In this document: one piece after another, positions 32,780-49,637 of the stretch | Position numbering within the stretch: the stretch's first letter is position 1 | Layout of the letters: each line of letters begins with the position of its first letter | Assembly: GCA_001005265.1 (NCBI GenBank) | Contig: CP011392.1 | Location: 1,299,902 to 1,363,901, forward strand | Direction: 5' to 3' | Source: Dehalogenimonas sp. WBC-2 | GTDB lineage: Bacteria > Chloroflexota > Dehalococcoidia > Dehalococcoidales > Dehalococcoidaceae | DNA length: 64,000 nucleotides | Position numbers and translations under genes: made by a program | The notes under the pieces: generated by a model | What the model was told of the DNA's origin: nothing | Database searches by the model: none | Seen by the model: only the letters and a program-made list of their open reading frames with translations

Positions 32780-33531
32780 CCAGAACCATCGCCATGGCAG
32801 GAAAGGGGGGTACCGGTAAGACCTCACTGGCATGTTTGATAGTCAGGTATCTGGTTAAACGCGGCGGGGCACCGCTGCTGGCGGTAGACGCCGATCCGGC
32901 GGCTAATTTTGGACTGGGTATGGCCATAGAGGTTAATCAAACCATTGGTTCGGTGCTGGCAGAATTCAATGCAAACAAAGGCCTCATACCACCCGGGTTA
33001 TCAAAGGACGCTTATCTAAACATCAAGTTCAATAACGCCATAGCAGAAAGCCAGGGGGTAGATTTAATCACGATGGGCAGAGGTGAGGGCGCCGGCTGCT
33101 ATTGCTTCCCCAATAATGTGCTCAAAAGTTTTATTGACAATCTAATGCCCAACTATAAATATATGGTAATGGACAATGAGGCCGGATTAGAACATCTTTC
33201 CCGCGGCACGACACAACATATCGATGACCTGGTCATGGTGTCAAACCACTCAATTAAAGGCGTACGCACCCTTAATACCGTGCTTCAATTGGTCCGAGAG
33301 CTAGGACTGGATATCAAGAGAAAGTGGGTTGTAATAAACCAGGCGCCGGTGCGTGTGGATCCTCTGGTGAACGCTGAACTGGCGCGCTTGGGTATATCCC
33401 CAGATATAGTGGTGCCGCTGGAAAATCTGATCTTGGATTATGATTTACAGCAGCGTTCGCTCCTTGAAATGCCGGAGGATTCATCAGCGGTATCTGCCAT
33501 TGACGAGTTCATGAAAAAACTTCTATCCTAG
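32776..33531 (+). CDS. CooC/AcsF-like nickel-insertion ATPase
   Basis: A 251-residue MinD-type P-loop ATPase. The deviant Walker A KGGTGKT starts at K10. The CxC pair C108/C110 (GAGCYCF) is the dimer metal site of CooC/AcsF. Known members mature the Ni sites of CODH or acetyl-CoA synthase. No CODH gene is in view, so ACS (acsB) is the probable client and AcsF the better comparison. It overlaps the upstream gene by 4 bases; folD follows after 19. Confidence 0.9.
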   Translation: MTRTIAMAGKGGTGKTSLACLIVRYLVKRGGAPLLAVDADPAANFGLGMAIEVNQTIGSVLAEFNANKGLIPPGLSKDAYLNIKFNNAIAESQGVDLITMGRGEGAGCYCFPNNVLKSFIDNLMPNYKYMVMDNEAGLEHLSRGTTQHIDDLVMVSNHSIKGVRTLNTVLQLVRELGLDIKRKWVVINQAPVRVDPLVNAELARLGISPDIVVPLENLILDYDLQQRSLLEMPEDSSAVSAIDEFMKKLLS

Positions 33532-33550
33532 AAAACAAGAGGAGTAAGTT

Positions 33551-34438
33551 ATGACAGCCAGGATAATCAGCGGTACGGAGATCTCACAACAAATCCGGGA
33601 AGAACTTAAAGAGGAAATCATTCATCTCAAAGAGCAGCACGGTGTCGTCCCCGGACTGGCAACGGTAATTATCGGAGATGACCCTGCGTCTCAAACTTAT
33701 GTCGGCTCTAAAATCAAGGCATGCCAGTCACTGGGCATCTTTTCAGCAAACTTTCCACTGCCAAATGAAACCTCAGAAAGCGAACTTCTGGATTTGATAG
33801 CAAAATTGAATCACGACCCGAAGATCAGTGGCATCTTAGTCCAGGTACCGCTCCCCGGTCACATAGATGAAGGCCGCGTAATGATGGCCATAAGTCCCGA
33901 TAAGGACGTGGACGGCTTTCATCCGGTAAGTGTCGGGCGAATGGTCGCCGGACAACCAACCTTCCTGCCGTGCACACCTCACGGAATACAGGAGATTTTG
34001 ACCCGTAGCGGTGTAGAGACTAAAGGTGCGGAAGTCGTAATCGTCGGCCGTTCCAATATTGTCGGCAAACCGGTTGCCAATATCTTGATGCAAAAAGCCC
34101 GCGGTGCCAATGCCACTGTGACAGTATGCCATAGCGCCACCCGCGACATCAGCGCCCACACCCGCCGCGCCGATATCCTGATCGCCGCCATAGGAAAACC
34201 TAAATTCATTACTGCGGACATGGTTAAAGCCGGAGCAACGGTCATTGATGTCGGCACCAATGAAATAGGGAAAACACCGGCAGGTAAACGTATCTTGTGT
34301 GGAGACGTGGATTTTGATAAGGTTAAAGAAGTGGCTGCGGCCATCACCCCGGTTCCGGGCGGAGTCGGCCCGATGACAATCGTAATGCTGATGGCCAATA
34401 CAGTCAAAGCTGCCAAACTGGCTCACCAAATAAACTAA
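33551..34438 (+). CDS. folD: Methylene-THF dehydrogenase / methenyl-THF cyclohydrolase
   Basis: Bifunctional enzyme linking formyl-, methenyl- and methylene-THF. The catalytic Lys/Tyr region is TYVGSKIKACQSLGI (about 51-65), with PLPGHI and DKDVDGFHP next. The Rossmann cofactor loop is VVIVGRSNIVGKP (about 160-172), and TPVPGGVGPMT is near the end. GAGGAG precedes the ATG. Length 295 is normal. No separate fchA is present, consistent with FolD doing both steps. Confidence 0.97.
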   Translation: MTARIISGTEISQQIREELKEEIIHLKEQHGVVPGLATVIIGDDPASQTYVGSKIKACQSLGIFSANFPLPNETSESELLDLIAKLNHDPKISGILVQVPLPGHIDEGRVMMAISPDKDVDGFHPVSVGRMVAGQPTFLPCTPHGIQEILTRSGVETKGAEVVIVGRSNIVGKPVANILMQKARGANATVTVCHSATRDISAHTRRADILIAAIGKPKFITADMVKAGATVIDVGTNEIGKTPAGKRILCGDVDFDKVKEVAAAITPVPGGVGPMTIVMLMANTVKAAKLAHQIN

Positions 34439-34623
34439 ACAAAGCTGTCTATGTTAAAATTAAAGGTCGGTATTACACCAGCCTATTATCGGCTCAAAAG
34501 TGAAGGTTCCAGCCGGGAAGTCGCTTAACTATCTGAAATCCGATAAGCCCTATTAGTGCACTTAAGGTATTGTCTGCGGCAGCGAAAAACATAATAACTG
34601 TGTCGTAAGAATTGGAGAGGCCC

Positions 34624-35559
34624 ATGTCCATTGAAACCCCGCATCTTAATTATAACGGTACCATACGCCCGATCCGTTTGGGCGATGGAGATACGGCTGT
34701 TGATGTGGGTGGCGAAAACAGTTATCCGTTTTACACCTTTGAAGGAAGTATGCCCCATTTGCCCCGTATCGCCATGGAAATATATGATGAGCCGCCCAGC
34801 GATTGGCCGGAAGCCGCTATAGCGCCGTTCGCCGATGTTATTGATAACCCTATAGCCTGGGCCAGGAAATGTATCACCCAGTACGGGGCAGAAATGATCT
34901 GCCTGCAACTTCAAAGCACCGACCCCAATGGTACCAACCGTAGCGCCGATGAAGCGGTGCAGTTGGTAAAACAACTGGTGGCCGCTATTGACGTCCCCCT
35001 CATTGTCTGGGGCACCGCCAATCACGAAAAAGACACCGAAGTATTACGAGCTGTGGCTGAAGCCGTTCAAGACCGGCGCTTGGCGCTTGGGCCGGTTGAA
35101 GAGGGCGATTATAAAAAAATTGGTGCCACTGCGATGGCGTATAACCATATCGTCATTGCATCCAGCCCGATCGATATTAACATGGCAAAGCAGCTGAATA
35201 TTCTCATGTCTAATCTGGGTATCAAAGAAAGCAACCTGATAATGGACCCAACGGTCAGCGCTATAGGTTACGGCATAGAATACGCCTACTCTGTTATGGA
35301 ACGCATCCGCATGGCGGCGCTTACCCAGCAAGATGAAAAATTGCAGTTTCCACTCATCTGCAATATCGCCCGCGAGGTATGGAAATCCAAGGAAGCAAAA
35401 ACCCTGAATACGCCGGAGCTTGGGGACGATGCCAAACGCGGCATTACACTGGAAGCAATGAGCGCAACCTTGCTGCTCCTGGCCGGAGCAGATATCTTGA
35501 TCATGCGTCATCCTGAAGCTATTGAACTGACACGAGAGTTGATATCAGATCTGAATTGA
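34624..35559 (+). CDS. acsD: CODH/ACS corrinoid Fe-S protein, small (delta) subunit
   Basis: A 311-residue TIM-barrel subunit that pairs with AcsC to carry the methyl-cobamide. It begins MSIETPHLNYNGTIRPI and contains YEDEPPSDWP-like EIYDEPPSDWPEAAI, a family hallmark, plus QSTDPNGTNRS and the late ADILIMRHPEAIEL. ATG 34624 is preceded by GGAGAGG; an in-frame TTG at 34612 overlaps that site. The 185-base gap after folD holds nothing recognised. Next comes acsB. Confidence 0.94.
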   Translation: MSIETPHLNYNGTIRPIRLGDGDTAVDVGGENSYPFYTFEGSMPHLPRIAMEIYDEPPSDWPEAAIAPFADVIDNPIAWARKCITQYGAEMICLQLQSTDPNGTNRSADEAVQLVKQLVAAIDVPLIVWGTANHEKDTEVLRAVAEAVQDRRLALGPVEEGDYKKIGATAMAYNHIVIASSPIDINMAKQLNILMSNLGIKESNLIMDPTVSAIGYGIEYAYSVMERIRMAALTQQDEKLQFPLICNIAREVWKSKEAKTLNTPELGDDAKRGITLEAMSATLLLLAGADILIMRHPEAIELTRELISDLN

Positions 35560-35628
35560 TCAAATCTGACAGTTTCGGGCAGTAATTGTCATCAGATATT
35601 ATCGGTCTATAAACGAGGGGAACTACTA

Positions 35629-37833
35629 ATGTCACAGATAATCGCAGCCGCCGCCATCAGGGGAGCCCACCGTATTGTGGCTATGGCAGAGGCCAAATGG
35701 CAGGAGGCACTGAAACGCTGGGGAGGCAACGAACCTGTCGGTTTTCCGAATACCGCCTATTACTTACCAATCATTTATGGTGTCACGGGTCTTAAGGTCG
35801 AACGACTGGATGATATTGCACCGGTGATTGAACGCTGCCGCAAAATGCTACCGCCTCCGATAAATGAAGCCCAGCCCTTACCATCGCTGGCACCGGCACT
35901 TGATGCGGGGATGGCAACTTTATTTGCCGAAGAAATTATTGAAGCCATACGATACCTTGAAACTCCCGATTTCTACACCCGAATGGAAGATACGACGTCT
36001 GAATCTCAATGGCTGGGGGCAGCTGATGACGTTATCCTGCGGAAACGCGGCGTAGAATTTGTCGACGGCAGCGCACCGGGATTTGCCGCCATTTTAGGCG
36101 CTGCCCCGAGTGATGAATGGGCAGCCCGCATTGCTACCGAGTTACAGCAGCGGGACCTATATGTTTTCATGTGCGCAGAAAATGAAGGACAGCGGTTCAG
36201 CCAGCAACTCCATCGCGCGGGAGTCCAGGTGGGTTGGCCTACTCGACTTGTTCCGTTCGGTCCCGATGTTTCGGCAAGCGTCTTTGCTCTTGGTTTCGCA
36301 ACCCGGGTCGCCCTTTCATTTGGCAATGTGGAACCAGGTGATTATCACAAACTTTTTCAATACAGCAAAGACCGCATCCCTGCTTTCATCATAACGCTGG
36401 GCAATGTTAGCGATGAGTGGTATGCAAACGCCGCCGGCGCGCTCAACTTTGGGTTTCCGGTGATTGCCGATACGACTATTCCTGAAATACCGCCGAGCGG
36501 TGTCAGCGCTAACAAACTGGTGGTATCCAACGTACCGCACGACCAGATTGTTGCCCGTGCCGCCGATGTCCGCGGCCTTAAAGTAGTGGTCTCTGAAGTT
36601 CCGGTGCCGGTGGCTTACGGCCCCGCGTTTGAAGGCGAACGGGTGCGTGGTGACGATATCTATCTGGAATGCGGCGGCGGCCGCACCCCCATGGTGGAAT
36701 GGGCTACTTCCAAGGATATGAGCGAAGTTAAAGATGGCCAGGTGAATGTCATCGGGCCTGACATCACTGAAGTTGTTCCCGGCAGCAAACTACCCATGGC
36801 GATAGTTGTCGAGGTGGCAGGACAGCAGTTACATGAAGATTATGAACCTATATTAGAGCGTCAGGTGCACCACCTTATCAATTACGCGCAAGGGGTAATG
36901 CACATCGGCCAACGTGATATAGCCTGGTTGCGCATCAGCAAAAGCGCCGTTGAAAAAGGATTCCGTTTAAAGCACATTGGGAAACTGCTTCACGCCAAAC
37001 TACACCAGGACTTCGGCCGTATTTTTGACAAGATCCAGGTGAAGATTTACACCACAGAGAATGACGTAGTCGCCATCGCGGCCAAAGCAAAAGAAGTCTA
37101 CGCCGTTCGCGACGCCCGGATAGAGGGCATGAAAGATGAGACCACCGATGTTTTCTATTCTTGCCTTTTATGCCAATCATTTGCCCCATCACATGTTTGC
37201 ATCATCAGCCCTGAACGCACCGGCTTATGCGGTTCTTATAACTGGGTAGATTGTAAAGCTTCCTTTGAGATAAACCCCACCGGCCCCAATCAACCGGTAG
37301 CCAAGGGAGAGACCATTGACACCAGGTTGGGCCAATGGAAGGGTGTAAACGAATTCGTTTTCCAGGCCTCGCACGGTAATATCAGCCATTGTAATTTCTA
37401 CAGTATTTTGAGCGACCCGATGACCGCATGCGGCTGTATGGAATGCATCGCTGTTATTTTACCGATGTGCAACGGAGTGATGACGGTCAACCGGGAATAC
37501 TCCGACATGACGCCCAGCGGCATGAAATTCACCACTCTTGCCGGTACCATCGGCGGCGGTGTGACTACACCCGGCTTTGTGGGTCATTCAAAATACAACA
37601 TCGCTCAACGGAAATTCCTGACCGCAGAAGGCGGCATCAAACGTTTGGTATGGATGCCTCGTTCATTGAAAGAAGAAATTGCCGATCGTTTCAATGAGAG
37701 GGCGGCCGAAATCGGTATTCCAGATCTCTTGGAACGTATCGCCGATGAGAGCACCGGCACCACCGAAGAAGAAATACTGGCCTTTCTTGCGGAAAAAAAC
37801 CACCCTGCGCTAACCATGGAACCCTTGATGTAG
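35629..37833 (+). CDS. acsB: Acetyl-CoA synthase (CODH/ACS beta subunit)
   Basis: Forms or cleaves acetyl-CoA at the Ni-Ni-[4Fe-4S] A-cluster. All six A-cluster cysteines are present: C512, C515, C524, C534, C601 and C603. That is a uniform +6 offset from Moorella numbering, so no gaps occur in the active-site region. Length 734 matches bacterial AcsB. GAGGGG precedes the ATG. CO must come from elsewhere or be released, because no acsA/cooS gene is in the window. In Dehalococcoides mccartyi the enzyme is thought to cleave acetyl-CoA to give methyl-THF. Confidence 0.97.
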   Translation: MSQIIAAAAIRGAHRIVAMAEAKWQEALKRWGGNEPVGFPNTAYYLPIIYGVTGLKVERLDDIAPVIERCRKMLPPPINEAQPLPSLAPALDAGMATLFAEEIIEAIRYLETPDFYTRMEDTTSESQWLGAADDVILRKRGVEFVDGSAPGFAAILGAAPSDEWAARIATELQQRDLYVFMCAENEGQRFSQQLHRAGVQVGWPTRLVPFGPDVSASVFALGFATRVALSFGNVEPGDYHKLFQYSKDRIPAFIITLGNVSDEWYANAAGALNFGFPVIADTTIPEIPPSGVSANKLVVSNVPHDQIVARAADVRGLKVVVSEVPVPVAYGPAFEGERVRGDDIYLECGGGRTPMVEWATSKDMSEVKDGQVNVIGPDITEVVPGSKLPMAIVVEVAGQQLHEDYEPILERQVHHLINYAQGVMHIGQRDIAWLRISKSAVEKGFRLKHIGKLLHAKLHQDFGRIFDKIQVKIYTTENDVVAIAAKAKEVYAVRDARIEGMKDETTDVFYSCLLCQSFAPSHVCIISPERTGLCGSYNWVDCKASFEINPTGPNQPVAKGETIDTRLGQWKGVNEFVFQASHGNISHCNFYSILSDPMTACGCMECIAVILPMCNGVMTVNREYSDMTPSGMKFTTLAGTIGGGVTTPGFVGHSKYNIAQRKFLTAEGGIKRLVWMPRSLKEEIADRFNERAAEIGIPDLLERIADESTGTTEEEILAFLAEKNHPALTMEPLM

Positions 37834-37849
37834 ACTAAGGAGACGATAA

Positions 37850-39199
37850 ATGGCTCTTTCCGGAATCGAAATATTCAAATATCTGCCTAAAACCAATTGC
37901 GCCAAGTGCGGTGTCCCGACCTGCCTGGCTTTCGCGATGAGCCTGGCAGCAGGCAAAGCCGAACTGACTGCCTGCCCTTTTATCAGCGAAGAATCCAAGC
38001 TTAAACTGGAAGAGGCGTCAGCACCGCCTATCCGCCCTGTTAGTATTATGACTGGTGGTAAGCCTCTTAAAATCGGCGGTGAAACGGTGATGTTCCGCCA
38101 TGAAAAACGATTTGAGAATTCTCCCGGAATCGCCGTCATCATCAGCGATACCATGAAAGATTCTGAGATTGACCGCCGACTGAAAAGTCTTGAGATATTC
38201 ACCTACACCCGTGTTGGAGCCACCCTTAAACCGGAAATGGTAGCGCTCAAATACGAATCTGGCAATCCGGAGTCTTATGCTGCCCTTGCCTCAAAGTCAA
38301 GGAATCAAACCAACGCCGGAATCATCCTTATGTGCCAGGACGCCGAGGCGCTCAAAGCGGCGGCTGAAGCTTGCGGTGACCGTAAACCGATATTATGCGC
38401 CATCACAGTTTCAAACTTTGACCTGTTGGCCCCGCTGGCAAAGGAATTGACACTGCCTGTCGTCGCCCGTGCCGAAAATATCAGTCAACTGGCCGAACTG
38501 ACCGGGCAATTGACTGCCATGGGCATCAACAATATTATCCTGGACACCGGTGCGCGTAATTTGAAGAATGCGCTGGCAGATCAGATTGCTCTCCGCCGCT
38601 TGGCATTACTCAAAAAGAATAGAGGATTAGGATTCCCGACTATCGTTTTCCCTGCAGAAATGACCGATAATCCCATCAAAGAAGCTCTCTGCGCGGCCGT
38701 ATTGATGGCTAAATACGCAGGTATCATCGTGCTTTCAGATTTCAAGGGGGATACCCTGTTCCCATTGCTGGTAGCCCGCTTGAATCTCTATACAGATCCA
38801 CAACGACCATTGGCTACAGCCGAGGGTATTTACGACATCAACGGACCGGATGAAAATTCACCGGTGGCAATAACCTGCAATTTCTCATTGACCTATTTCC
38901 TGGTCTCAGGTGAGATTGAAAATACCAGGATGCCCGCCCATCTGCTCATCAAGGACACTGAAGGTCTATCAGTGATGACTGCCTGGGCTGCTGGAAAATT
39001 CGGCGCAGATAACATCGGCGGTTTCGTTAAGAAAAGCGGCATTGCCGAACGGGTTAAGCACCGTAAGCTGATAATCCCCGGATATATTGCCCAGGAAAGC
39101 GGAGGCTTGGAGGAAGAGTTGCCGGATTGGGAGATCATGGTCGGCCCCCGAGAAATCGCACACCTGATGCCTTATCTCAAAAACAATTGGGGAGCCTAA
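37850..39199 (+). CDS. acsC: CODH/ACS corrinoid Fe-S protein, large (gamma) subunit
   Basis: The 449-residue partner of AcsD. The N-terminal [4Fe-4S] module has C17, C20, C25 and C42 (LPKTNCAKCGVPTCLAFAM). A TIM barrel follows, and the C-terminal domain (from about 315) binds the cobamide. Its corrinoid is methylated by AcsE and passes the methyl group to AcsB. AAGGAGA lies before the ATG. acsE starts 8 bases after its stop. Confidence 0.95.
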   Translation: MALSGIEIFKYLPKTNCAKCGVPTCLAFAMSLAAGKAELTACPFISEESKLKLEEASAPPIRPVSIMTGGKPLKIGGETVMFRHEKRFENSPGIAVIISDTMKDSEIDRRLKSLEIFTYTRVGATLKPEMVALKYESGNPESYAALASKSRNQTNAGIILMCQDAEALKAAAEACGDRKPILCAITVSNFDLLAPLAKELTLPVVARAENISQLAELTGQLTAMGINNIILDTGARNLKNALADQIALRRLALLKKNRGLGFPTIVFPAEMTDNPIKEALCAAVLMAKYAGIIVLSDFKGDTLFPLLVARLNLYTDPQRPLATAEGIYDINGPDENSPVAITCNFSLTYFLVSGEIENTRMPAHLLIKDTEGLSVMTAWAAGKFGADNIGGFVKKSGIAERVKHRKLIIPGYIAQESGGLEEELPDWEIMVGPREIAHLMPYLKNNWGA

Positions 39200-39207
39200 G
39201 AGAACCT

Positions 39208-40089
39208 ATGGTATTACTGATCGGCGAAAACATTAACGTGATGTCCCGGAGTATCGGAGCGGCGTTCAAGGAGCGCCAATCTGAGCCGGTACGATCCGTT
39301 GCCAAGGAGTTAACTGAGGCCTGCATGGATTACCTGGATCTGAATATCGGCCCAGCCAAAAAACATGGCGCCGAACTGATGCCGTGGCTGGTATCTACCG
39401 TTCAGGAGGTAAGCGACTTGCCTCTGTCTTTGGATACAACAAATATAGCAGCAATAGAGGCTGGGTTGAAGCTGTGCAAGCAGCGGGCCTTAGTTAATTC
39501 AGTCTCATTACAGCCAGAACGCATTGAACAATTACTGCCATTGGTAAAAGAACATAAGGCTGAGATGATCGGATTGTTATGGGGTAGTGACGGCATGCCG
39601 CGAGATGCCAATGAACGCTGTATGCTCACCGTGGACCTGGTATACAAGGCCAATCAGATGGGAATAGCCAACCAGGATATTTGGATAGACCCCATCGCTA
39701 CTCCGGTCAGCGGTGAAATAAGTCAGGTAACCGCCTGCGTTGAATTCATGGCAATGCTGCCGGACATAGCTCCTGGTTGCAAGTCTATTGTCGGACTGTC
39801 TAACGTCTCCAACGGTACCCCACAACATCTGCGCCCAATGCTGAATCGTACCTATCTGATTATGTTAATGCGCTACGGATTGTATGCAGCCATTGTAGAT
39901 GCTTTTGACAAGGAGCTTCAGGAGATTGCGCGCGGCAGAGCTCAGGACATCGTTAATATAGTTCACCGTGCTATGGATGATGAAAACATCAATTTAAACT
40001 CTTTAAACAAGGTGGAACGGAATTATGTCAAGACGGTACGAGTATTAACAGGGCAGGCATTATATTCTGATTCATGGCTCGAAATCTGA
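39208..40089 (+). CDS. acsE: Methyl-THF:corrinoid Fe-S protein methyltransferase
   Basis: Moves methyl groups between methyl-THF and the AcsCD corrinoid. It is a 293-residue TIM barrel starting MVLLIGENINVMSRSIG, with DYLDLNIGPAKKHG and LDTTNIAAIEAGLK as typical pterin-binding motifs. The start is ATG 39208; the frame extends back to 39127 inside acsC but that part is not homologous. With no MetF in sight, this enzyme may run in the direction that makes methyl-THF for methionine synthesis. Confidence 0.94.
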   Translation: MVLLIGENINVMSRSIGAAFKERQSEPVRSVAKELTEACMDYLDLNIGPAKKHGAELMPWLVSTVQEVSDLPLSLDTTNIAAIEAGLKLCKQRALVNSVSLQPERIEQLLPLVKEHKAEMIGLLWGSDGMPRDANERCMLTVDLVYKANQMGIANQDIWIDPIATPVSGEISQVTACVEFMAMLPDIAPGCKSIVGLSNVSNGTPQHLRPMLNRTYLIMLMRYGLYAAIVDAFDKELQEIARGRAQDIVNIVHRAMDDENINLNSLNKVERNYVKTVRVLTGQALYSDSWLEI

Positions 40090-40094
40090 CTTAA

Positions 40095-40763
40095 ATGACT
40101 AGCATTTTACCTTTACCCTCACCGGGCGGCTATGACTTGGCTTACGCCAAATCTTATGAAATAGCTTTTGACCGGTTGGACAGTTCCAATCTAACTAATA
40201 TCTGCCACAGTAGCGGTGCTTACCTCCTTGGTGCCGAATCAATTGGGCTTAAATTTCTGGGATGCCAATACACCATTGATGTTAAACACCGGACTATCAC
40301 ATCAGCAGCAGGTATCTCCCAGATCACCGACAGCTTGATAATGTTACACTACCTAGTCACGGCAAGCGTTGAGACGCCGTCTGTCACTCAATCTGTTACA
40401 TTCAGAGAATTGCCCGGCGGTAAAGCCTATTACCCCACTTTTATTAAACGAGCACTAAGTCCGGTAATAACGCATTTTAATGAGTCATTGGATCAACTGT
40501 CCATCGTTGCCCGGCACCTTGGTGGTGAACTGGTTTCTTTGGGAGATTTGGCAGTTAGTTTTAAAGTATTGCCACAAGTCACTGTGACATGGGTGATTTG
40601 GAAAGGTGACGGGGAATTCCCAACCCAGGGGACGGTTCTCTTTAATAACGGCATCAGCAAGTATCTACCTACAGAAGATATCGCCGTGCTTTGCCAATCT
40701 ATTGCTTTGAAGTTATGCAATATAGACACGGAGAAGACCAGGGGCTATAATCCGGATGGATGA
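40095..40763 (+). CDS. DUF3786 protein in the acs operon
   Basis: A 222-residue protein whose C-terminal half matches DUF3786 (RELPGGKAYYPTFIKR, GGELVSLGDLAVSFKVLP, DGEFPTQGTVLFNNGISKYLP with the shared DGEFP...LFD-like turn). It starts 5 bases after acsE. The family recurs near corrinoid and CODH/ACS genes, but its role is not known to me. Co-location suggests help in corrinoid protein assembly or regulation. Four scattered Cys do not form a clear metal site. Confidence 0.75.
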   Translation: MTSILPLPSPGGYDLAYAKSYEIAFDRLDSSNLTNICHSSGAYLLGAESIGLKFLGCQYTIDVKHRTITSAAGISQITDSLIMLHYLVTASVETPSVTQSVTFRELPGGKAYYPTFIKRALSPVITHFNESLDQLSIVARHLGGELVSLGDLAVSFKVLPQVTVTWVIWKGDGEFPTQGTVLFNNGISKYLPTEDIAVLCQSIALKLCNIDTEKTRGYNPDG

Positions 40764-41439
40764 TGTTATGGTAAGTGAAGAAAAAATCAAAGTATTGCTT
40801 GCGGACGATCATGTGATTGTCCGTGAAGGAACACGTGAGATGGTTCAGCGACAGCCTGACATGCAGGTGGTGGCTGAAGCCAGTGACGGAGTGGAGGCGG
40901 TGGAACTGGCAAAGGTTTACAAACCGGACGTTATCGTTATGGACATATCGATGCCAAATATGAACGGCATTGAAGCGACAAAACAAATTAAAAAAATCCT
41001 CCCAACCACAGCGATACTCGTTCTGACTGCTTATGACTCCGATCAATACATTATGGCGCTATTGGAAGCCGGCGCGGCGGGCTACCTGTTAAAAAATGTT
41101 CGTGGTAATCAACTTATAGAGGCGATACGAGCTGTGTATTCCGGCGAATCAATCCTGCAACCTTCAACAACCAGACGCGTTATTGACCATCTGAAATCCA
41201 AGCCATTACCCACGGATGATAACCCTGCAGCCGCGCTTACCGAACGTGAGATGGAAGTTTTGAAGCTTGCAGCTAAAGGCGTCAGTAACCGGGACATCGC
41301 CGACCGGCTTTTTGTAAGCAGCAGAACGGTACAAACTCACCTTTCAAATATTTTCAAGAAGCTTGAGGTAGCCTCCCGTACCGAAGCTATTCTTTACGGT
41401 CTTAAACGTGGTTGGTTCTATATGGAGGAACTACCCTGA
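40756..41439 (+). CDS. NarL-family response regulator, orphaned by IS
   Basis: A 227-residue regulator. The receiver domain has the acidic pair in LLADDHVIVREG and the phospho-acceptor in VIVMDISMPNMNG. The LuxR helix-turn-helix is LTEREMEVLKLAAKGVSNRDIA with VQTHLSNIF. ATG 40756 overlaps the DUF3786 stop; ATG 40768 is an alternative. It ends EELP with its stop TGA embedded in CTGA, where the kinase gene probably starts. The kinase is broken by an IS, so this regulator may now lack its partner. Confidence 0.93.
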   Translation: MDDVMVSEEKIKVLLADDHVIVREGTREMVQRQPDMQVVAEASDGVEAVELAKVYKPDVIVMDISMPNMNGIEATKQIKKILPTTAILVLTAYDSDQYIMALLEAGAAGYLLKNVRGNQLIEAIRAVYSGESILQPSTTRRVIDHLKSKPLPTDDNPAAALTEREMEVLKLAAKGVSNRDIADRLFVSSRTVQTHLSNIFKKLEVASRTEAILYGLKRGWFYMEELP

Positions 41440-42047
41440 AAGAGACTCCCGGAAAACCAAGGCCTTCACCCCCCACCAAGCTTTGGCGCCGTATACTCAA
41501 GTTATTTACCAACTTCCATATATGGTTGCTTATCATTTTCTTTATCGGCGGTTTTTTTCTCCAATATCCTCAATTCATTCCCTTCATTGATCCCATAAAC
41601 CCAAACAGTTTTTTAGACCTGAGCCGTCATTCTTTCGGGCGATTAATTATGCTGCTGCCAGTAACTTACGCTGCTTTAGTTTTTGGGATCCGTATCGGAT
41701 TATTGGCACTGTTGGCTGCGGTATCAATCATTGTGCCCTATTTGTTTATTACAGAAATCCCTGTAACCAATGATGATATCATCGAAATCATCGGTATTGT
41801 TATTATCGGTCTGGTAGTTAATCTATGGCTGGAAAGTTATGAATCAGATAAGCGTCACCGTCAGATGGCCTATTTGAGACTAGAAAGCGCACAGAGAGAA
41901 CTCCAAAGAATGCAACAAAACCTCAGATTTTATGATACCGTTCCTTTGTAGTTGTTTGCCCCTTCGGAGTATAGTCTACCCTAGCGGTATATGCCGCCAA
42001 TATCCAAGTTCGGCATATCCCGTTAGTATAGCTAGGGGATTGATAAT

Positions 42048-42596
42048 ATGTCCGATACCCAAAACAAAACGAATAAACGTATCTGGGTTAAGCGAATCTG
42101 TGGTGGTGTTATGTCCGTGAGTGCTGCCGGATTTTGGACGGTGCTGCCGGAAACTGGGTGGCTGTCCGAAGATATAGCCCAAGTAGCTGCTAGAATATTT
42201 ATACTATTGATATTTATCGCCGGTTTAATATTAATTTTTAGTAGTTTCAATAAATTGCCCGAACCATCAATTGTATCCCAACAGCCGAAGGAATTATCCC
42301 CCGAAGATAAAATCCAATTGGCAGAACTTTATGCTTCGCTTAGTAGACTTAGTTACGATTTGGGGACAAGTAAATTAGCAACCAAAGAATTACTCCGAAA
42401 GCGTATTAATAACAATACCGATATGATTAGTAAATTAGCCTTACCTAATAAACTAGATACGGCTAGAACTGTGCTCTGTCTTGTGGAAGAATGTCAATCG
42501 TTTTGCGAAACGATGGAAGATTGGCAGCGTGATTTCTGTGTTAGAAAATATAAATGGATAATAGATTATCAACTTAAAAAACTTTTAAAGGGATGA
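42048..42596 (+). CDS. IS passenger: membrane protein of unknown function
   Basis: A 182-residue protein with a hydrophobic region of one or two helices (about 22-35 and 50-68) and a soluble, helical C-terminal half containing three Cys (CLVEECQSFC). A GGGG ribosome site lies before ATG 42048. Its TGA overlaps the transposase ATG (ATGA), so the two are translationally coupled. IS6 elements normally carry only a transposase, so this gene is unusual. Nothing in it identifies a function. Confidence 0.65.
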   Translation: MSDTQNKTNKRIWVKRICGGVMSVSAAGFWTVLPETGWLSEDIAQVAARIFILLIFIAGLILIFSSFNKLPEPSIVSQQPKELSPEDKIQLAELYASLSRLSYDLGTSKLATKELLRKRINNNTDMISKLALPNKLDTARTVLCLVEECQSFCETMEDWQRDFCVRKYKWIIDYQLKKLLKG

Positions 42597-43600
42597 ATGA
42601 AATGAATAACGTAATTAATTGCAAACATTGTGAATCAGAAAACGTAATAAAGTTCGGCATACAAAGCGGTACTCAGATGTACTTCTGTAAAGACTGTAAC
42701 CGCAAGTTTAAAGATGATGACGCCTTATTCGATTGCCGTGTACCCGCCGAATACGTCAGTTCCGCTATGTCCATGTACTATCGTGGCATGAGTATTGAGG
42801 ATATATGCCAGCAACTTAAAATGAACAAAGGTTATCATCCGTCAAAGTCGGTAGTATTCAAGTGGATAAACAAGTTCACCGATAAAGCCGTTGACCACTA
42901 TGCCAAGTATAGACCGCAAGTCGGGGACACTTGGATCGCCGACGAAACGGTACTCAGCCTGGACGGTAACGATGTTTGGCTGTGGGATATTATTGACGAT
43001 AAAACACGTTTCCTACTTGCCAGCAAACTCAGTTATACCCGCAACACATCAGACGCTAGAACGCTATTTCAATTAGCCAAGAATCGTGCGGGTAAATCGC
43101 CTAAAGCCTTATTGACTGATGGATTAAGAGCATACATTGACGCAAGTATGGAAGTATTCGGGGATGAATCAGACCACATAAGAACCAGTCCAACGGCTAA
43201 AGAGAATAGCACGAACCGAATAGAGAGATGGCATAGCACGTTAAAAGAACGCACCAAAGTCATGCGGGCTTTGCGTAATCCAGAATCAGCTTTAAGATTC
43301 ACTGATGGCTTTATCGCTTACTATAACTTCATCAGACCACATGAAGGACTTAACGGGCAGACTCCAGCAGAATCGGCGGGTATAGACTACGATGCTAAGA
43401 ACTGGTCTGAGGTAATTCGTATAGGTGAACCGAACCGGATTACCAAAATAGTAAAACCTTATAAAGTCCCCACCGAATTACGTAAGGCAAGGCGGGTAGT
43501 AACTGGCAAGCCTTATAAGTCGGGTAGAAAATACAAGGTTAAAACCGAAGTTAAACCGGGCGTAATGGCTATCGAGCGTAGCCGAAAGAAGGCCATCTAA
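42593..43600 (+). CDS. IS6/IS240-like DDE transposase with zinc ribbon
   Basis: A 335-residue transposase. The N-terminal zinc ribbon CKHC...CKDC (about 9-38) is followed by a helix-turn-helix (MYYRGMSIEDICQQL) and the DDE core: D in DTWIADETVL, D in ALLTDGLRAY, E in NRIERWHSTLKER. The basic C-terminus (VVTGKPYKSGRKYKV) is longer than in classical IS6. Zinc-ribbon IS6-type transposases are common in archaea. The start may also be ATG 42602. It appears intact, so the element may still move. Confidence 0.9.
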   Translation: MNEMNNVINCKHCESENVIKFGIQSGTQMYFCKDCNRKFKDDDALFDCRVPAEYVSSAMSMYYRGMSIEDICQQLKMNKGYHPSKSVVFKWINKFTDKAVDHYAKYRPQVGDTWIADETVLSLDGNDVWLWDIIDDKTRFLLASKLSYTRNTSDARTLFQLAKNRAGKSPKALLTDGLRAYIDASMEVFGDESDHIRTSPTAKENSTNRIERWHSTLKERTKVMRALRNPESALRFTDGFIAYYNFIRPHEGLNGQTPAESAGIDYDAKNWSEVIRIGEPNRITKIVKPYKVPTELRKARRVVTGKPYKSGRKYKVKTEVKPGVMAIERSRKKAI

Positions 43601-43798
43601 ATGAGTAATTTAGAAGTTATGTATTTAGTGCTATTCCCGATGGCTTGTATCGTTAGTGCGGTATTGTTTTTTATGTACTTTATCATCCGGCAGATGGGCA
43701 AGGTGAACAAAAAGCTAGATGTACTCATCCATGTTAAACAGTATTCCAATCCATACAGCCAATCCAATCATGCCGATGGCGTCTATGATGATAAATAG
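43601..43798 (+). CDS. IS passenger: small membrane protein
   Basis: A 65-residue protein starting at the base after the transposase stop (TAA-ATG). It has one long transmembrane helix (about 6-29) and a polar tail. It overlaps the opposing gene at 43715-43939. Function unknown. Confidence 0.5.
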   Translation: MSNLEVMYLVLFPMACIVSAVLFFMYFIIRQMGKVNKKLDVLIHVKQYSNPYSQSNHADGVYDDK

Positions 43799-43939
43799 CG
43801 GTGTTAACTCTGGTGTATTATCCGAAAAGAATAATTGGAGTTGTAAAAATAAGATGACGGTTAAAGCACTTTCAACAAGGAATAGGACAATTTTACCTAA
43901 AATCAGCCCTATGTTTTTGCGCCGTTTATATCTAGGCAT
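43715..43939 (-). CDS. IS passenger: small two-helix membrane protein on the opposite strand
   Basis: A 74-residue protein with basic start MPRYKRRKN and two transmembrane helices (about 10-35 and 44-67). A minus-strand TGC-TATACT (43955-43947) ends seven bases before its ATG, so it would be leaderless, as seen for gatC. It overlaps the 3' end of the 65-residue gene. Either or both may be real; the promoter favours this one. Confidence 0.5.
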   Translation of the reverse strand: MPRYKRRKNIGLILGKIVLFLVESALTVILFLQLQLFFSDNTPELTPLFIIIDAIGMIGLAVWIGILFNMDEYI

Positions 43940-44662
43940 GGAGTCTAGTATAGCATGAAACTACTAAAAGAGAACGGTATCGATTTTATCTGAAACAAAT
44001 CACTATCGCCCAGGAGGAAGAACGCCGTCGCATCGCTCAGGAACTTCATGATGATACAGCCCAAGACCTCATCGCTATTTCCAGAAAAATCGATGGGTTT
44101 ATGTCACTGCATCCTGCGCTGTCATCAGGAGATGAGTCATATCTGGAAGACATGCATCAACATGTTAATCGAACTTTGAGCAGCGTACGCCGATTTAGCC
44201 AGGATTTACGGCCCTCAGTTCTGGACGACCTGGGTCTTATCCCCGCTATCGAATGGCTGGTGCCGGAATTAGCCCAATACTATAAACTCAAAATCGAACT
44301 TAATATCAACGGCCCTATCCGCCGTTTCTCCCCTGAAACCGAACTGGTTCTTTTCCGTATCGCTCAGGAATCTCTCCGTAATGTCGGTAAACATGCTGTC
44401 GCCAGCCAAGTGTGGGTGACCATAGATTTTATGCCCCAGACCACTATTTTAACGGTACAGGATAATGGCCGTGGCTTCACTCCACCCGAACGCATCGGTG
44501 ACTTGGCTGTAAGTGGTAAATTAGGCTTAACCGGTATGCAGGAACGGGCACAACTCATTGGTGCCACGATAGACCTGAGTTCAGCCCCGAACCAAGGCAC
44601 AACCTTGAAGGTTGAACTGCCGCTTTCAAGCTCAGCAACAGAACATCCCTATTAGTTGATGG

Positions 44663-44717
44663 TTGGTACTAATCCTCTATTGTGTTATAATCTCATATTG
44701 AACGACTGTTCAATATG
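44663..44717 (+). promoter_or_regulatory. hdr promoter with palindromic operator
   Basis: TTGGTA (44663-44668), a 17-base spacer and a consensus TATAAT (44686-44691). A perfect inverted repeat, CATATTGAAC - GACT - GTTCAATATG (44694-44717), covers the expected transcription start. This is the layout of a repressor operator (for example TetR-type), but the regulator is not in the window. Confidence 0.7.
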
Positions 44718-44731
44718 CTTAGAGGAGTATT

Positions 44732-45880
44732 TTGTTTCCGCAAACACCCTTCCAGGAAGTAGCTGACCTCATCAATGAAAACGGTGGAGAATCGCTGCGT
44801 CTGTGTTATCAGTGCGGCATCTGTTCTGCCTCCTGCCCGTGGCGGGACTATACGTCCTTTTTGCCCAGAAGGATGTTTAAAGAAGCCCAACATGGTTTAA
44901 TCAATTTTGAAAGCGACGCTATCTGGCGCTGTGTCACCTGCAACAAATGCGTCGAGCGCTGCCCCAGAGGCGTGTCTATTATCGACATAATGCGTGCCTT
45001 GCGGCGGGCGATTATTGGCATGGGTATCGCCGAACCTCCTTCCGCGTTAGCCAGTGCCCTCAGAAACTTGACCGCCACCGGCAATCCCATGGGTGAAGCC
45101 CCAGAAAATCGCAACTCATGGGCAGAAGGTCTGGACATAAAACCCTTCGATGCCGCCACGGAATACCTGTTTTTCCCTTGTTGCGTAACCGCCTATGACC
45201 CGGCTATCAGAAACAGCATCGTGGCCACAGCTAAAGTGCTGACAGCCTCCGACTTGAATTTCGGTATTATTAATGGTTCTGTTTGTTGCGGCGAAAGTGT
45301 CCGCAAAGCCGGTGACGAAGACCTTTTTAAACAACTGGCCGGCACCAATACCACCCTCTTCACTGGGGCTAAGGTTAAAAAAATAATCGTCACCTCACCC
45401 CATTGTTATCATACGTTCATAAACGAGTACCCCGAGACCGGAGGCTGCTTTGAAGTTATCCATATCAGTCAGTTGCTGGCAGAACTGACGGCTAACGGTC
45501 AATTGAAGCTAAAGGGTGATGGTACCAATCGAAAAATTACCTACCATGATCCCTGCTACCTTGGACGCCATAATGGAATCTACGAGGAGCCAAGAAAAGT
45601 CATTAAAGCTATACCCGGCGTCGAACTTTTAGAAATGCAACCGGCCAAGGCTGACAGTCTTTGTTGCGGCGGTGGCGGCGGACGTATTTGGATGGAAACT
45701 AAACGCACCGAGCGTTTCAGCGACAAAAGGCTTCAACAAGCCGTTGACACTGGCGCCGACACCTTGGTCACCTCCTGCCCTTATTGTCTATCCAATCTCA
45801 GGGACAGCTCCAATAACCAGGCTGTCCCTGTTGGCTTATCCATCATTGACATTAGTGAGTGTATTGCCCAGGCTCTTTGA
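44732..45880 (+). CDS. HdrBC-like iron-sulfur / CCG-domain protein
   Basis: A 382-residue fusion of HdrC- and HdrB-like parts. Two [4Fe-4S] motifs, CYQCGICSASCP (about 25-36) and CVTCNKCVERCP (about 68-79), precede two Cys-rich CCG domains. The first (FFPCCVTAYDP, VCCGES, PHCYH) is degenerate at its end. The second is complete (DPCYLGRH, LCCGGGGGR, CPYCLSNL). HdrB-type CCG domains bind a noncubane cluster for disulfide or thiol chemistry. The start is TTG 44732 after AGAGGAG. The HdrA gene begins 17 bases after its stop, so they act together. Confidence 0.9.
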   Translation: MFPQTPFQEVADLINENGGESLRLCYQCGICSASCPWRDYTSFLPRRMFKEAQHGLINFESDAIWRCVTCNKCVERCPRGVSIIDIMRALRRAIIGMGIAEPPSALASALRNLTATGNPMGEAPENRNSWAEGLDIKPFDAATEYLFFPCCVTAYDPAIRNSIVATAKVLTASDLNFGIINGSVCCGESVRKAGDEDLFKQLAGTNTTLFTGAKVKKIIVTSPHCYHTFINEYPETGGCFEVIHISQLLAELTANGQLKLKGDGTNRKITYHDPCYLGRHNGIYEEPRKVIKAIPGVELLEMQPAKADSLCCGGGGGRIWMETKRTERFSDKRLQQAVDTGADTLVTSCPYCLSNLRDSSNNQAVPVGLSIIDISECIAQAL

Positions 45881-45897: not shown

Positions 45898-48800
45898 ATG
45901 ACCGAAGAAATCAGGACGGGTGTCTACATCTGCCATTGCGGCATCAACATCGCCAGTATTATTGATGTGGTGTCAGTTGCCGAGTATGCAGCCATGTTAC
46001 CCGGAGTAGCAATAGCCCGTGCCAATAAATACACTTGTTCCGATCCAGGTCAGGAGATCATTAAGTCCGATATACGGGAATATAAACTCAACCGTATTGT
46101 GATTGGCGCTTGCTCTCCAGCAATGCACGAGAGAACATACCGGCGTGTGTTACAGTCTGCAGGCCTTAATCCTTATCTCCTTGAAATAGCCAACATTCGG
46201 GAACAATGCGCCTGGGTCAATGCCGATAAAGCGGCAGCAACCGCCAAGGCAAAGGACATGGTGCGAGCCGCTATCAGCCGCGTGGCTTTGCAGCAACCGT
46301 TAGAAACACGGCAAATCCCGGTAAATAGCAACACCCTTATCGTTGGCGGCGGCATCGCCGGCATTACCGCCGCATTGGAAATAGCTGAAGCCGGGCACCA
46401 GGTATATCTGGTCGAAAAAAACCCGAGCATCGGCGGGCACATGGCGCAACTGGACAAAACCTTTCCGACTTTAGACTGCGCTGCCTGTATTTCCACACCG
46501 AAAATGAGCCAGACAGGACAGCACCCCAACATCTCTTTGCTTTCATATAGCCAGGTTACCGAATGCAGTGGTCACGCCGGAAATTTTAAGGTGACAATAA
46601 ACCGCAAACCCCGCTATGTCAATGAAAAGGATTGTAAAGGTTGCGGCGACTGCGCCACGGTATGCCCGGTAATCCTGCCGTCAGAGTTCGATCTGGGTCT
46701 GGCCAAACGTAAGGCGGCCTACCGGCCTTTTCCACAATCAGTGCCTAATACTTATACCATCGACCGCCGTGGCACCTCCCCCTGCCGCGCTGCTTGTCCC
46801 GCCGGGGTCAATGCCCATGGCTATATAGCTCTCATCGCGCAAGGCAAGTTCACCGAAGCCCTGGAAGTAGTACGGCGCACCATGCCTTTTGCCTCCGTTT
46901 GCGGCCGGGTGTGCACGCACCCCTGCGAAACTGAATGCGGCCGCGGCGACCTTGATGAAGCCGTGGCTATCCGTGCCTTAAAACGTTTCATCGCCGACTA
47001 TGAAACACAAAACGGCCGAAGTCAGGGTTCAACTTCCATCAGCCGAGCAGAAATAATCGCGGTGGTCGGCTCCGGGCCTGCCGGTTTGTCCTGCGCTTAT
47101 GATCTGCTAAAAACCGGTTATCCGGTTACCATCTTTGAAGCCGAAGAAAAACCAGGCGGAATGTTGCGTTACGGAATCCCCGAATACCGTCTTCCTGAGT
47201 TATCACTTGATAATGACATCGCTTTTCTCAAGGATATGGGAGCGGAAATTAAAACCGGCACACTCATCAATTCAATCAAACAACTTGAGAATCAAGGTTA
47301 CAAATCGGTTTTTATCGCTTGCGGCGCCTGGCAAAGCCAGAAACTAAATATTCCCGGCGAAACGGCTAACGGCGTCCTAAATGCCATTGATTTCCTTAAA
47401 CAAGTCCGAAAAGGCCAGCCTCCATCTTTGAGCAAAAAGGTCGCCGTCATCGGCGGCGGTAATGCCGCTATCGACGCGGCGCGGACGGCGCTCAGATTGG
47501 GCGCTGCCGAAGTTACCATTATTTACCGCCGTTCTATGACCGAAATGCCTGCAATCAGTGAAGAGATCAATGCCGCTCTATCCGAAGGCGTACAACTGTC
47601 ACTGCTTACCGCCCCCACTGCCATCATAGAGAATGGCGGCCAGGTTACCGGCCTCCGCTGCATCAGGATGGAACTCGGAGAATCGGATTCAAGCGGCAGG
47701 CGCAGACCGGCGCCGGTCAACGGCAGTGAATTCGATATTACCGCCGGCAATATTATTGTTGCTATCGGCCAAACAGTAACAGATAGTGTCTTTACCGAAC
47801 TAGACCACCAACCAAACGGCACAATAGCGGCTGATGCTATTACCATGGAAACGAGCCTTAAAGGTATCTTTGCCGGAGGCGACGCTGTTAGCGGTCCGGC
47901 AACTGTTATAGAAGCTATCGCCGCTGGCAAGGAAGCCGCAATTTCCATCAACCGGCTTTTGAATGGACAAGACCTTCATATAGACCGGAAAAACTCACCG
48001 AACATTGTGCGTCCATCGATCCAAGGCGTCCCGAAAGCACCGCGGATAACAGCATCAAGCCTTCCCATGGAAATCAGTTCATTCAAGGAAACTGAACTTG
48101 GCTTCACTGAATCACAGGCGATAACAGAAGCCGCCCGCTGCTTGAACTGCGCTGGCTGTTCCGATTGTGGTCAATGCCTGATAGTTTGCGAACCCAAATG
48201 TATTGACTTTGCGCAGCAAGCCGAGAACCTGGAAATTGAAGTTGGTAATGTCATCGTTGCCACCGGTTATGAGACCTTTGACCCCTCAATTATTCCTCAG
48301 TATGGTTACGGTAAATTACAAAATGTGATTACCGGTCTTGAATTTGAACGTCTGGCCAATGCGTCAGGGTCGACAAGCGGTGAGATACTTCTCTGCGACG
48401 GTCGTAAACCAGAGAGCGTTGCAATTATACATTGCGTAGGAAGCCGCGATAAAAACTACCATGAATATTGCTCCCAAATATGCTGTATGTATTCCCTGAA
48501 GCAAGCTCACCTGATCAAGGAACGCACCGGGGCATCAGTTTACCAGATGTACATCGATTTGCGCTGCGCTGGTAAAGGCTATGAGGAATTTCTGAATCAT
48601 GTGGCTGAAGAAGGTGTCAATTTTGTCCGTGGGAAGGTAGCTGAAGTCACCGATATAACAACCGGTGAAGAGTCCCCGGGTAAGCTTATTGTTGTAGTCG
48701 AAGATACTCTTTTGGGAGCGGTCCTGCGAGTACCGGTGGACATGGTGGTACTGGCAAGTGCGGTTGAACCACAGCAGGATGCCGAAGCTGTCGGCCGCCT

Positions 48801-49254
48801 CTTTGGCATCTCTCGCAGTGCCGACGGTTTTTTCATGGAACGTCACCCCAAACTTGATCCCATCGGCACTATGAGCGACGGTATTCTAATTGCTGGCTGT
48901 GCTCATGGCCCTAAAGATATTCCGCAAACTGTAGCCCAGGCACAAGCCGCCGCAGCGCGGGTTTTGGCGACTATTGCCAGAGGTAACATTTCACTGGATG
49001 CCTGTATTTCAGAAGTCATCGAAACCAACTGCGATGGCTGTGCCTATTGCATTGACCCGTGCCCGTTCGGAGCAATCACATTGATCGAGTACATAAAAAA
49101 TGGTGAGATCAAAAAGACGGTAGAGTCTGACCCGATAAAATGCCGTGGCTGTGGTGTCTGCATGGCCACCTGCCCCAAACAAGGGATTGTAGTTAAGAAT
49201 TTCACTACTGATCAATTACAGGTGATGGTTGACTCTTTGTTGAGTCCCGCTTGA
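45898..49254 (+). CDS. HdrA with internal GltD/NfnB-like flavoprotein insertion
   Basis: An 1118-residue flavin and Fe-S protein. Residues 1 to about 290 are HdrA: N-terminal CHCG, FAD loop VGGGIAGITAALEIAEAG, CAACISTPKM and the ferredoxin CKGCGDCATVCP. At about 290-705 a GltD/NfnB-like unit is inserted: CRAACPAGVNAHGY, CGRVCTHPCETECGR, a FAD site VVGSGPAGLSCAYDL and an NAD(P) site VIGGGNAAIDAARTA. HdrA then resumes (CAGCSDCGQCLIVCEP, HCVGSRD) and ends with two ferredoxin clusters near 1040-1090. The start is ATG 45898 after AAGGAGG. Two flavin centres with HdrBC suggest electron confurcation or bifurcation with NAD(P)H, which is inference. Confidence 0.92.
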   Translation: MTEEIRTGVYICHCGINIASIIDVVSVAEYAAMLPGVAIARANKYTCSDPGQEIIKSDIREYKLNRIVIGACSPAMHERTYRRVLQSAGLNPYLLEIANIREQCAWVNADKAAATAKAKDMVRAAISRVALQQPLETRQIPVNSNTLIVGGGIAGITAALEIAEAGHQVYLVEKNPSIGGHMAQLDKTFPTLDCAACISTPKMSQTGQHPNISLLSYSQVTECSGHAGNFKVTINRKPRYVNEKDCKGCGDCATVCPVILPSEFDLGLAKRKAAYRPFPQSVPNTYTIDRRGTSPCRAACPAGVNAHGYIALIAQGKFTEALEVVRRTMPFASVCGRVCTHPCETECGRGDLDEAVAIRALKRFIADYETQNGRSQGSTSISRAEIIAVVGSGPAGLSCAYDLLKTGYPVTIFEAEEKPGGMLRYGIPEYRLPELSLDNDIAFLKDMGAEIKTGTLINSIKQLENQGYKSVFIACGAWQSQKLNIPGETANGVLNAIDFLKQVRKGQPPSLSKKVAVIGGGNAAIDAARTALRLGAAEVTIIYRRSMTEMPAISEEINAALSEGVQLSLLTAPTAIIENGGQVTGLRCIRMELGESDSSGRRRPAPVNGSEFDITAGNIIVAIGQTVTDSVFTELDHQPNGTIAADAITMETSLKGIFAGGDAVSGPATVIEAIAAGKEAAISINRLLNGQDLHIDRKNSPNIVRPSIQGVPKAPRITASSLPMEISSFKETELGFTESQAITEAARCLNCAGCSDCGQCLIVCEPKCIDFAQQAENLEIEVGNVIVATGYETFDPSIIPQYGYGKLQNVITGLEFERLANASGSTSGEILLCDGRKPESVAIIHCVGSRDKNYHEYCSQICCMYSLKQAHLIKERTGASVYQMYIDLRCAGKGYEEFLNHVAEEGVNFVRGKVAEVTDITTGEESPGKLIVVVEDTLLGAVLRVPVDMVVLASAVEPQQDAEAVGRLFGISRSADGFFMERHPKLDPIGTMSDGILIAGCAHGPKDIPQTVAQAQAAAARVLATIARGNISLDACISEVIETNCDGCAYCIDPCPFGAITLIEYIKNGEIKKTVESDPIKCRGCGVCMATCPKQGIVVKNFTTDQLQVMVDSLLSPA

Positions 49255-49319: not shown

Positions 49320-49637
49320 ATGCCGCTGGAAATTACAGACGACACATTTGAAGCTGAAGTAATCAAGTCGGAATTGCCGGTACTAGTGGATTTTTGGGCT
49401 CCATGGTGCGGGCCATGCCGCACGGTAGGGCCGGTGGTTGATAAACTTGAAGAAAAGCATAAAGAAAAATTCAAGTTCTGCAAAATGAACGTGGATGAAA
49501 ACCAAAAGACAGCGGGACAATACCGGGTTATGTCCATCCCAACGTTGATGTTTTTCAAAGGCGGCAAGGTTGAAGACACTGTCGTCGGCGCCGTACCTGA
49601 AAGTGCGCTACAGACTAAAATCGATAAAATAATTTAA
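49320..49637 (+). CDS. trxA: Thioredoxin
   Basis: A 105-residue thioredoxin with active site WCGPC at 31-35 (FWAPWCGPCRTVGPV), the cis-Pro loop RVMSIPTLMFF and FKGGK. It reduces protein disulfides in the cytoplasm. It lies directly downstream of the HdrA/HdrBC pair but has its own likely promoter. Because HdrBC enzymes act on disulfides, a functional link is possible but not shown. AGAAGG precedes the ATG. Confidence 0.95.
   Translation: MPLEITDDTFEAEVIKSELPVLVDFWAPWCGPCRTVGPVVDKLEEKHKEKFKFCKMNVDENQKTAGQYRVMSIPTLMFFKGGKVEDTVVGAVPESALQTKIDKII

Follow-up and report, generated by a model that had tools for sequence, protein, structure and literature searches.

HdrA subunits of heterodisulfide reductase (Hdr) complexes that carry a GltD/NfnB-like module within their chain are already known. 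The same architecture has been described for the HdrA of Moorella thermoacetica (PMC9430772, 2022), for HdrA9-11 of ANME-1 (PMC9012536, 2022) and for the archaeal type III HdrA (PMC12054007, 2025), in which NAD(P)H is proposed to feed through the insert to a bifurcating flavin, with ferredoxin docking blocked. Here, we describe an HdrA of this kind, encoded by a gene referred to below as hdrA-gltD, in a stretch of 64,000 nucleotides from Dehalogenimonas sp. WBC-2 (contig CP011392.1, positions 1,299,902 to 1,363,901). This whole stretch is called the window, and positions are counted from its first letter unless the contig is named; the genome itself is one contig of 1,725,728 bases. Together with an adjoining fused HdrCB, the protein seems, on balance, likely to carry out electron confurcation or bifurcation linked to reduced nicotinamide adenine dinucleotide phosphate (NADPH).

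Dehalogenimonas species live on little energy while detoxifying chlorinated pollutants. An NADPH-linked HdrA encoded in their core genome would be a testable candidate for the balancing of NADPH, ferredoxin and thiols.

A GltD-type module inside HdrA

The gene spans 45898..49254 on the forward strand and encodes 1118 amino acids (aa), as delineated by profile searches and a structure model. Its ATG at 45898, from which residues are numbered, is preceded by AAGGAGG, and its stop lies at 49254; an in-frame GTG at 45859 is found upstream, but within hdrCB. In HMMER searches against solved structures, the HdrA structure 5odc_A (E 4.4e-206) matches in two parts, residues 3-290 and 754-1113; residues 293-691 in between are instead matched by Nfn/GltD proteins (4ylf_B, 3e-95; 9bov_A, 3e-124) and by StnC (8oh5_C). 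This two-part match is far beyond chance, and the Pfam and NCBIfam domain calls are consistent with an HdrA split around a GltD module. As a first-pass annotation of this DNA had claimed, the module is an insertion and not an end-to-end fusion, because HdrA aligns in two parts around the Nfn/GltD match.

The insertion point lies inside the inserted ferredoxin domain of HdrA, between its cysteine motifs C246-C256 and C754-C764. According to the 5odc_A alignment and a residue table, the first half of HdrA (residues 1-290; 45898..46767, forward strand) comprises the N-terminal iron-sulfur (Fe-S) domain, the first part of the thioredoxin reductase (TrxR)-like flavin adenine dinucleotide (FAD) domain with C194/C197, and the cluster motif C246-C256. 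The second half (residues 753-1118; 48154..49251, forward strand) holds the cluster motif C754-C764, the remaining FAD domain with E817 and K868, and the C-terminal ferredoxin domain with C1045-C1092. The HdrA core is thus complete in all four of its domains: N-terminal Fe-S, FAD, inserted ferredoxin and C-terminal ferredoxin.

Between the halves, the GltD-type module takes up residues 291-752 (46768..48153, forward strand), as delimited by profile matches and by structure alignment of residues 290-763 to 9bov_A. The first-pass annotation had placed the insert at about residues 290-705; its end moves to about residue 752, with a tail at residues 726-751 (SFKETELGFTESQAITEAARCLNC) that belongs to the module. 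NfnB carries the counterpart of this tail at its N-terminus (4ylf_B, 18-42), and the alignment places the tail cysteines C748 and C751 in RCLNC (48139..48150, forward strand). Since the module has cysteines at both of its ends, these ends would be expected to lie close together, which should suit insertion into a loop.

The AlphaFold2 model of the full chain, built with 45 homologues, has a mean predicted local distance difference test (pLDDT) score of 90.0 and a predicted template modelling (pTM) score of 0.77, with no segment of at least three residues under pLDDT 50 and block means of 90-96 around both junctions; an earlier run with 11 sequences (pLDDT 70, pTM 0.45) was too weak for judging the junctions. 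With the insert skipped, the model superposes on 5odc_A over 647 residues (3.0 Å, Z 56.1), and residues 290-763 superpose on Nfn-ABC 9bov_A over 470 residues (1.7 Å, Z 50.4). The insert also superposes on StnC 8oh5_C over 468 residues at 1.8 Å, and NfnB chains cover it less fully (387-402 residues, Z about 40). Taken as a check of the full chain, the prediction gives an HdrA that would fold normally around the GltD insert, with no misfolding predicted.

Cofactor residues and the predicted route of electrons

Residue counts were taken from 41 aligned proteins in which HdrA flanks the GltD module at either end, one of these proteins (L094) being very divergent; only such proteins were counted because coverage by a probe spanning the junction is by itself no proof of the architecture. 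All 41 keep the cysteines of both inserted-ferredoxin motifs. E817 is Glu in 36 of the 41 and Asp in four more, and K868 is kept in 39. These two residues align with E356 and K409 in the HdrA of Methanothermococcus, which have been described as the signature of a bifurcating flavin in HdrA (PMC9430772, PMC12054007), and the HdrA flavin is probably the single bifurcating flavin of the window protein.

The insert brings a set of its own, all on the forward strand. Alignments place its Fe-S cysteines C296, C300, C335, C339, C343 and C347, together with K362, which aligns with StnC K170, at 46783..46983; the residue table gives the FAD motif GSGPAG (residues 391-396) at 47068..47085 and the NADP site, running from GGGNAA (519-524, GxGxxA) to YRR (543-545), at 47452..47532. 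Loss of flavin-binding residues was looked for in either module, and the cofactor residues of both are present; the two flavin sites and the NAD(P)H site expected from the first reading are supported, as two FAD sites and a pyridine-nucleotide site, by the residue table and the model.

The FAD-proximal 4Fe-4S cluster of NfnB has a Glu ligand, whereas StnC has K170 at this position and a flavin that is not bifurcating (PMC10482914). Among the HdrA inserts, the K362 position is Lys in 39 of 41. As a control, Glu occurs there in 15 of 15 NfnAB-type sequences, including the NfnB of this genome, and Lys in 47 of 50 other GltD-like sequences. The label GltD/NfnB-like is therefore right in that the domain is GltD-type and complete, but the residue of the bifurcating NfnB is absent, with K362 in place of the Glu; the Lys at the proximal cluster and the C-terminal RCLxC tail (K362, C748/C751) make the insert a StnC/NfnABC-type module. 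Since K362 is not Glu and StnC with that Lys does not bifurcate at this flavin, the insert flavin is probably a plain, non-bifurcating NADPH port.

This bears on the suggestion, published for ANME-1 HdrA-NfnB (PMC9012536), that both flavins bifurcate in a two-step energy ladder. The NfnB marker is an Arg at the FAD N5 (R187 in T. maritima, R201 in P. furiosus), and R431 of the insert (47188..47190, forward strand), which aligns at the flavin with R187 and with StnC R239, is kept in 41 of 41 inserts; the equivalent Arg is, however, also found in the non-bifurcating StnC, whose Lys rather than the Glu of NfnB most inserts share. Further, no NfnA-like gene adjoins hdrA-gltD, the neighbours being hdrCB and the thioredoxin gene; the genome's own NfnB is encoded at about 145.6 kb, and the 278-aa gene adjoining it is NfnA-like by eye. 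Two bifurcating sites are thus most likely not what the window protein has, and we consider such a ladder highly improbable here.

With regard to the pyridine nucleotide, GGGNAA...YRR in the second Rossmann fold of the insert is the same as in the NADPH enzymes NfnB and StnC. YRR is present in 30 of the 41 proteins, and eight, including that of Moorella stamsii, have an acidic residue instead (CLE, SLE, FLE, CIE). The HdrA of M. thermoacetica, with a similar insert, oxidises NADH at 190 U/mg (PMC9430772). YRR and CLE-type motifs may accordingly divide these proteins by specificity; the window protein would then belong to the NADPH class, and the Moorella class is read from the residues of M. 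stamsii. For the GltD domain of the archaeal sequences, an NAD-type GXGXXG motif has been reported (PMC12054007); in the window protein, GSGPAG of the FAD fold fits GXGXXG and GGGNAA of the NAD(P) fold is GXGXXA.

The partner protein is encoded directly upstream. Domain searches identify hdrCB (44732..45880, forward strand) as a fusion of HdrC, with two 4Fe-4S motifs, to HdrB-like CCG domains (HdrD/TfrB/EtfD-like). The first-pass annotation had expected HdrBC next door as two subunits; it is actually one protein of 382 aa. All eight HdrC cysteines are present, and the second CCG motif is complete (C275, C311, C312, C349, C352); the first lacks the first Cys of its CxxC (S222). With one of the two CCG motifs short of a cysteine, HdrCB is by that test not the CoB-CoM heterodisulfide reductase HdrB, and it scores 28 bits against TIGR03288, for which the cut-off is 345. 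The gap between hdrCB and hdrA-gltD is 17 nt in the window and 18-24 nt in seven of eight relative loci.

In the enzyme that we envisage, the ferredoxin arm of HdrA would bear a built-in NADPH dehydrogenase module. Hydride would pass from NADPH to the FAD of the inserted module, and electrons could exit singly via its two 4Fe-4S clusters, one of them probably with Lys362 as a ligand as in StnC. From there, they would move onward into the two clusters of the HdrA inserted ferredoxin domain and to the HdrA FAD, the putative single bifurcating flavin, which would split or merge them. One branch might run through the two 4Fe-4S clusters and the CCG site of HdrCB to a disulfide or another mid-potential acceptor. 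The other would connect to a carrier of low potential. Ferredoxin is the most likely one, binding at the C-terminal ferredoxin domain; in the methanogen complex this face is taken up by MvhD, and the operon described here encodes nothing that would cover it.

Some points weigh against this scheme. The NADP preference is read from motifs, and the MvhD-free members are known as genes and predicted proteins. The published model has the insert blocking ferredoxin docking at the inserted ferredoxin domain (PMC12054007), which makes the low-potential site a guess. Moreover, bifurcation could not be demonstrated for the Hdr complexes of M. thermoacetica (PMC9430772) and S. ovata.

The gene that follows, for a thioredoxin (WCGPC; 49320..49637, forward strand; domain searches, synteny), is adjacent in eight of eight genus genomes and lies about 60-140 nt after hdrA-gltD in the window and in seven of the eight relative loci. 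This proximity would fit a plain reductase of thioredoxin or another disulfide, in which NADPH electrons run from the insert through HdrA and HdrCB without any bifurcation. Against it, E817 and K868 of a bifurcating HdrA flavin are retained; a separate 310-aa TrxR-like open reading frame is present, and weak promoter-like sites lie between hdrA-gltD and the thioredoxin gene. On these grounds, a plain reductase appears rather doubtful.

The locus in Dehalogenimonas and beyond

Among the genomes sampled from the genus (eight, including that of the window, G000), hdrA-gltD is found in every one and is thus a core gene of Dehalogenimonas. No comparable HdrA match was found in the three genomes searched from a sister, Dehalococcoides-like genus, which agrees with a published remark that hdr genes occur in Dehalogenimonas and not in Dehalococcoides. 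The constant neighbours in the genus are a response regulator, a sensor kinase, hdrCB, hdrA-gltD and thioredoxin.

The operon of hdrCB and hdrA-gltD has no MvhD gene, and in the genus's eight relative loci MvhD is never encoded within 4 kb of hdrA-gltD. Outside the genus, 31 of 32 HdrA-GltD genes have MvhD inside that distance, some of these being weak matches at 26-28% identity. The genus form is thus simplified to two genes, hdrA-gltD and a single fused hdrCB, with thioredoxin alongside and no MvhD.

Each genus genome nevertheless has a single MvhD, which in G000 belongs to a hydrogenase operon about 17 kb away, and the complex could borrow this MvhD and the MvhAG hydrogenase in trans, coupling H2, NADPH and the HdrCB acceptor. 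Coupling with mvhADG has been proposed for the Bathyarchaeota type III HdrA (PMC12054007), and HdrC-HdrB-HdrA(GltD)-MvhD-MvhG-MvhA clusters occur in related Chloroflexota (G338; MvhD/MvhG in G028). The C-terminal ferredoxin domain, which contacts MvhD in methanogens, is retained, and the genome has one MvhADG operon. That operon, however, encodes its own Hdr proteins: it begins at the window end and reads HdrC-HdrB-tandem HdrA (1010 aa)-MvhD-MvhG-MvhA (L167, 3009-10609; about 1363008-1370608 of the contig). With MvhD also absent beside hdrA-gltD in all genus loci, borrowing seems unlikely.

A bolder proposal, in which we place little confidence, is that the built-in NADPH module replaced MvhD as the electron port, giving a minimal enzyme of HdrA-GltD and HdrCB that couples ferredoxin with thioredoxin or another thiol/disulfide pair. 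If true, this would be an HdrA enzyme independent of MvhD or a separate dehydrogenase subunit, reading NADPH itself.

The genes further upstream raise the idea that the complex donates electrons to a methylene-tetrahydrofolate reductase, in the manner of HdrCBA-MvhD-MetVF from Moorella. Wood-Ljungdahl genes (acs/fhs/folD) lie upstream of the hdr locus in the window and most relatives, and a Moorella stamsii cluster unites acs, hdrCBA(GltD), mvhD and a MetF-like gene. The Wood-Ljungdahl genes are not adjacent in G007 and G008, however, and metF is distant in G000 and missing from G005 and G006, which retain hdrA-gltD. As the window protein also has neither the tandem build nor the NADH-type motif of its Moorella counterpart, and its gene cluster has no metV/metF or mvhD, this role is very unlikely. 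In sum, the use of MvhD in trans, thioredoxin reduction without bifurcation and a role in methylene-tetrahydrofolate reduction carry less weight than NADPH-linked confurcation or bifurcation by HdrA and HdrCB.

The Wood-Ljungdahl cluster of the window (29081-40089) consists of fhs, RACo, cooC, folD, acsD, acsB, acsC and acsE. A Prismane-family protein, the family of the carbon monoxide dehydrogenase CooS/AcsA, was not found in the genome and is present in five of seven other genus members. A DUF3786 protein (40095-40763) separates acsE from the response regulator in the majority of genus loci and also occurs near the acs/hdr cluster L176. The NarL-type response regulator (40756..41439, forward strand) is syntenic in the genus, and the sensor kinase gene (41487..44652, forward strand), a single open reading frame in most relatives, is split by an insertion sequence (41934-43981, about 2.05 kb) with 24-nt imperfect terminal inverted repeats, an IS6/IS1-like transposase and a flanking 8-bp target duplication, GATTTTAT. 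A promoter-like site, by consensus match only, precedes hdrCB (TTGGTA-17-TATAAT, with TG ahead of the second hexamer; 44663..44691, forward strand). G006 has two near-identical copies of the acs-hdr region (L063, L064), separated by about 29 kb, and the second of them lacks thioredoxin and encodes an HdrA cut short within its C-terminal ferredoxin domain.

Beyond the genus, 32 homologues with the full architecture were verified in several phyla. The holders include 22 Chloroflexota genomes (among 400 sampled, with hints of more from the junction probe), Moorella stamsii, Desulfobacterota/Myxococcota, Armatimonadota, Bacteroidota and one archaeon, with partial copies at contig ends in Bathyarchaeota and Desulfobacca. 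Full-coverage probe matches in the sister genus (G001-G003, 632-696 aa) proved to be Fe-S/GltD proteins without HdrA, and several 35% matches in Clostridia were other GltD fusions.

In the HdrA tree, the genus proteins form one clade (Shimodaira-Hasegawa-like approximate likelihood ratio test, SH-aLRT, 100) and the tandem Moorella-type proteins another (100). Sister pairs of an HdrA with the insert and one without it occur within single gene clusters (L077, L174), which suggests that the module was gained or lost more than once at the same site; the tree requires nine changes, at least five of them on supported branches. Loss or gene conversion could explain these changes instead of repeated origin. 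That the insert arose from the NfnB of the same genome was rejected, as this NfnB falls in a different clade.

Comparison with known systems

Methanogen HdrABC (5odc, 8rvu, 7bkb) shares with the window protein the HdrA fold, all cluster motifs, E356/K409 and Cys197, but has no GltD insert, an HdrB with two non-cubane sites, MvhADG or FdhAB as partners and CoM-S-S-CoB as acceptor. The best-scoring structural neighbours of the insert are StnC and NfnA of the StnABC and NfnABC transhydrogenases (8oh5, 9bov, 9n5u), with the same GltD module, RCLxC tail, proximal-cluster Lys and YRR. In these enzymes, a NuoG-like protein carries the module, which feeds a StnAB/HydBC-type flavin mononucleotide, whereas in the window protein it would feed the HdrA FAD. 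HdrL1-3 of Desulfobacterium autotrophicum, compared here by their description, were reported in 2009 as a heterodisulfide reductase/glutamate synthase fusion with an NADH site, with MvhD following them and selenocysteine in two of the three (PMC2702500).

The HdrA of M. thermoacetica HdrCBA-MvhD-MetVF keeps the E/K residues as the window protein does, and NADH oxidation has been shown for it (PMC9430772). Unlike the window protein, it joins two HdrA units in tandem (about 1487 aa) and is accompanied by MvhD and MetVF; its M. stamsii relative has CLE in place of YRR, and the Moorella-type proteins form their separate clade.

The type III HdrA (Bathyarchaeota A10/ANME-1 A9, HdrA9-11) has its GltD/NfnB-like domain in the inserted ferredoxin domain, like the window protein (PMC9012536, PMC12054007), and Bathyarchaeota A10 likewise retains the N-terminal domain of HdrA1. 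The surroundings differ: Bathyarchaeota clusters have mvhADG and ANME-1 clusters several hdrA, whereas the window has one fused HdrCB, thioredoxin and no MvhD. For type III, NAD(H) is the published inference, and for ANME-1 it is two bifurcation sites, whereas the residues of the window protein point to NADPH and one bifurcating flavin.

To these systems, the present analysis adds an HdrA-GltD that is core to a whole genus of organohalide respirers, a two-gene form that has a thioredoxin gene beside it and no MvhD, and the readings drawn from Lys/Glu and YRR/CLE. Across HdrA-GltD proteins at large, these readings would predict one bifurcating flavin instead of two and a preference for NADPH or NADH that is readable from sequence, and they should also bear on the methylene-tetrahydrofolate reductase of M. 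thermoacetica.

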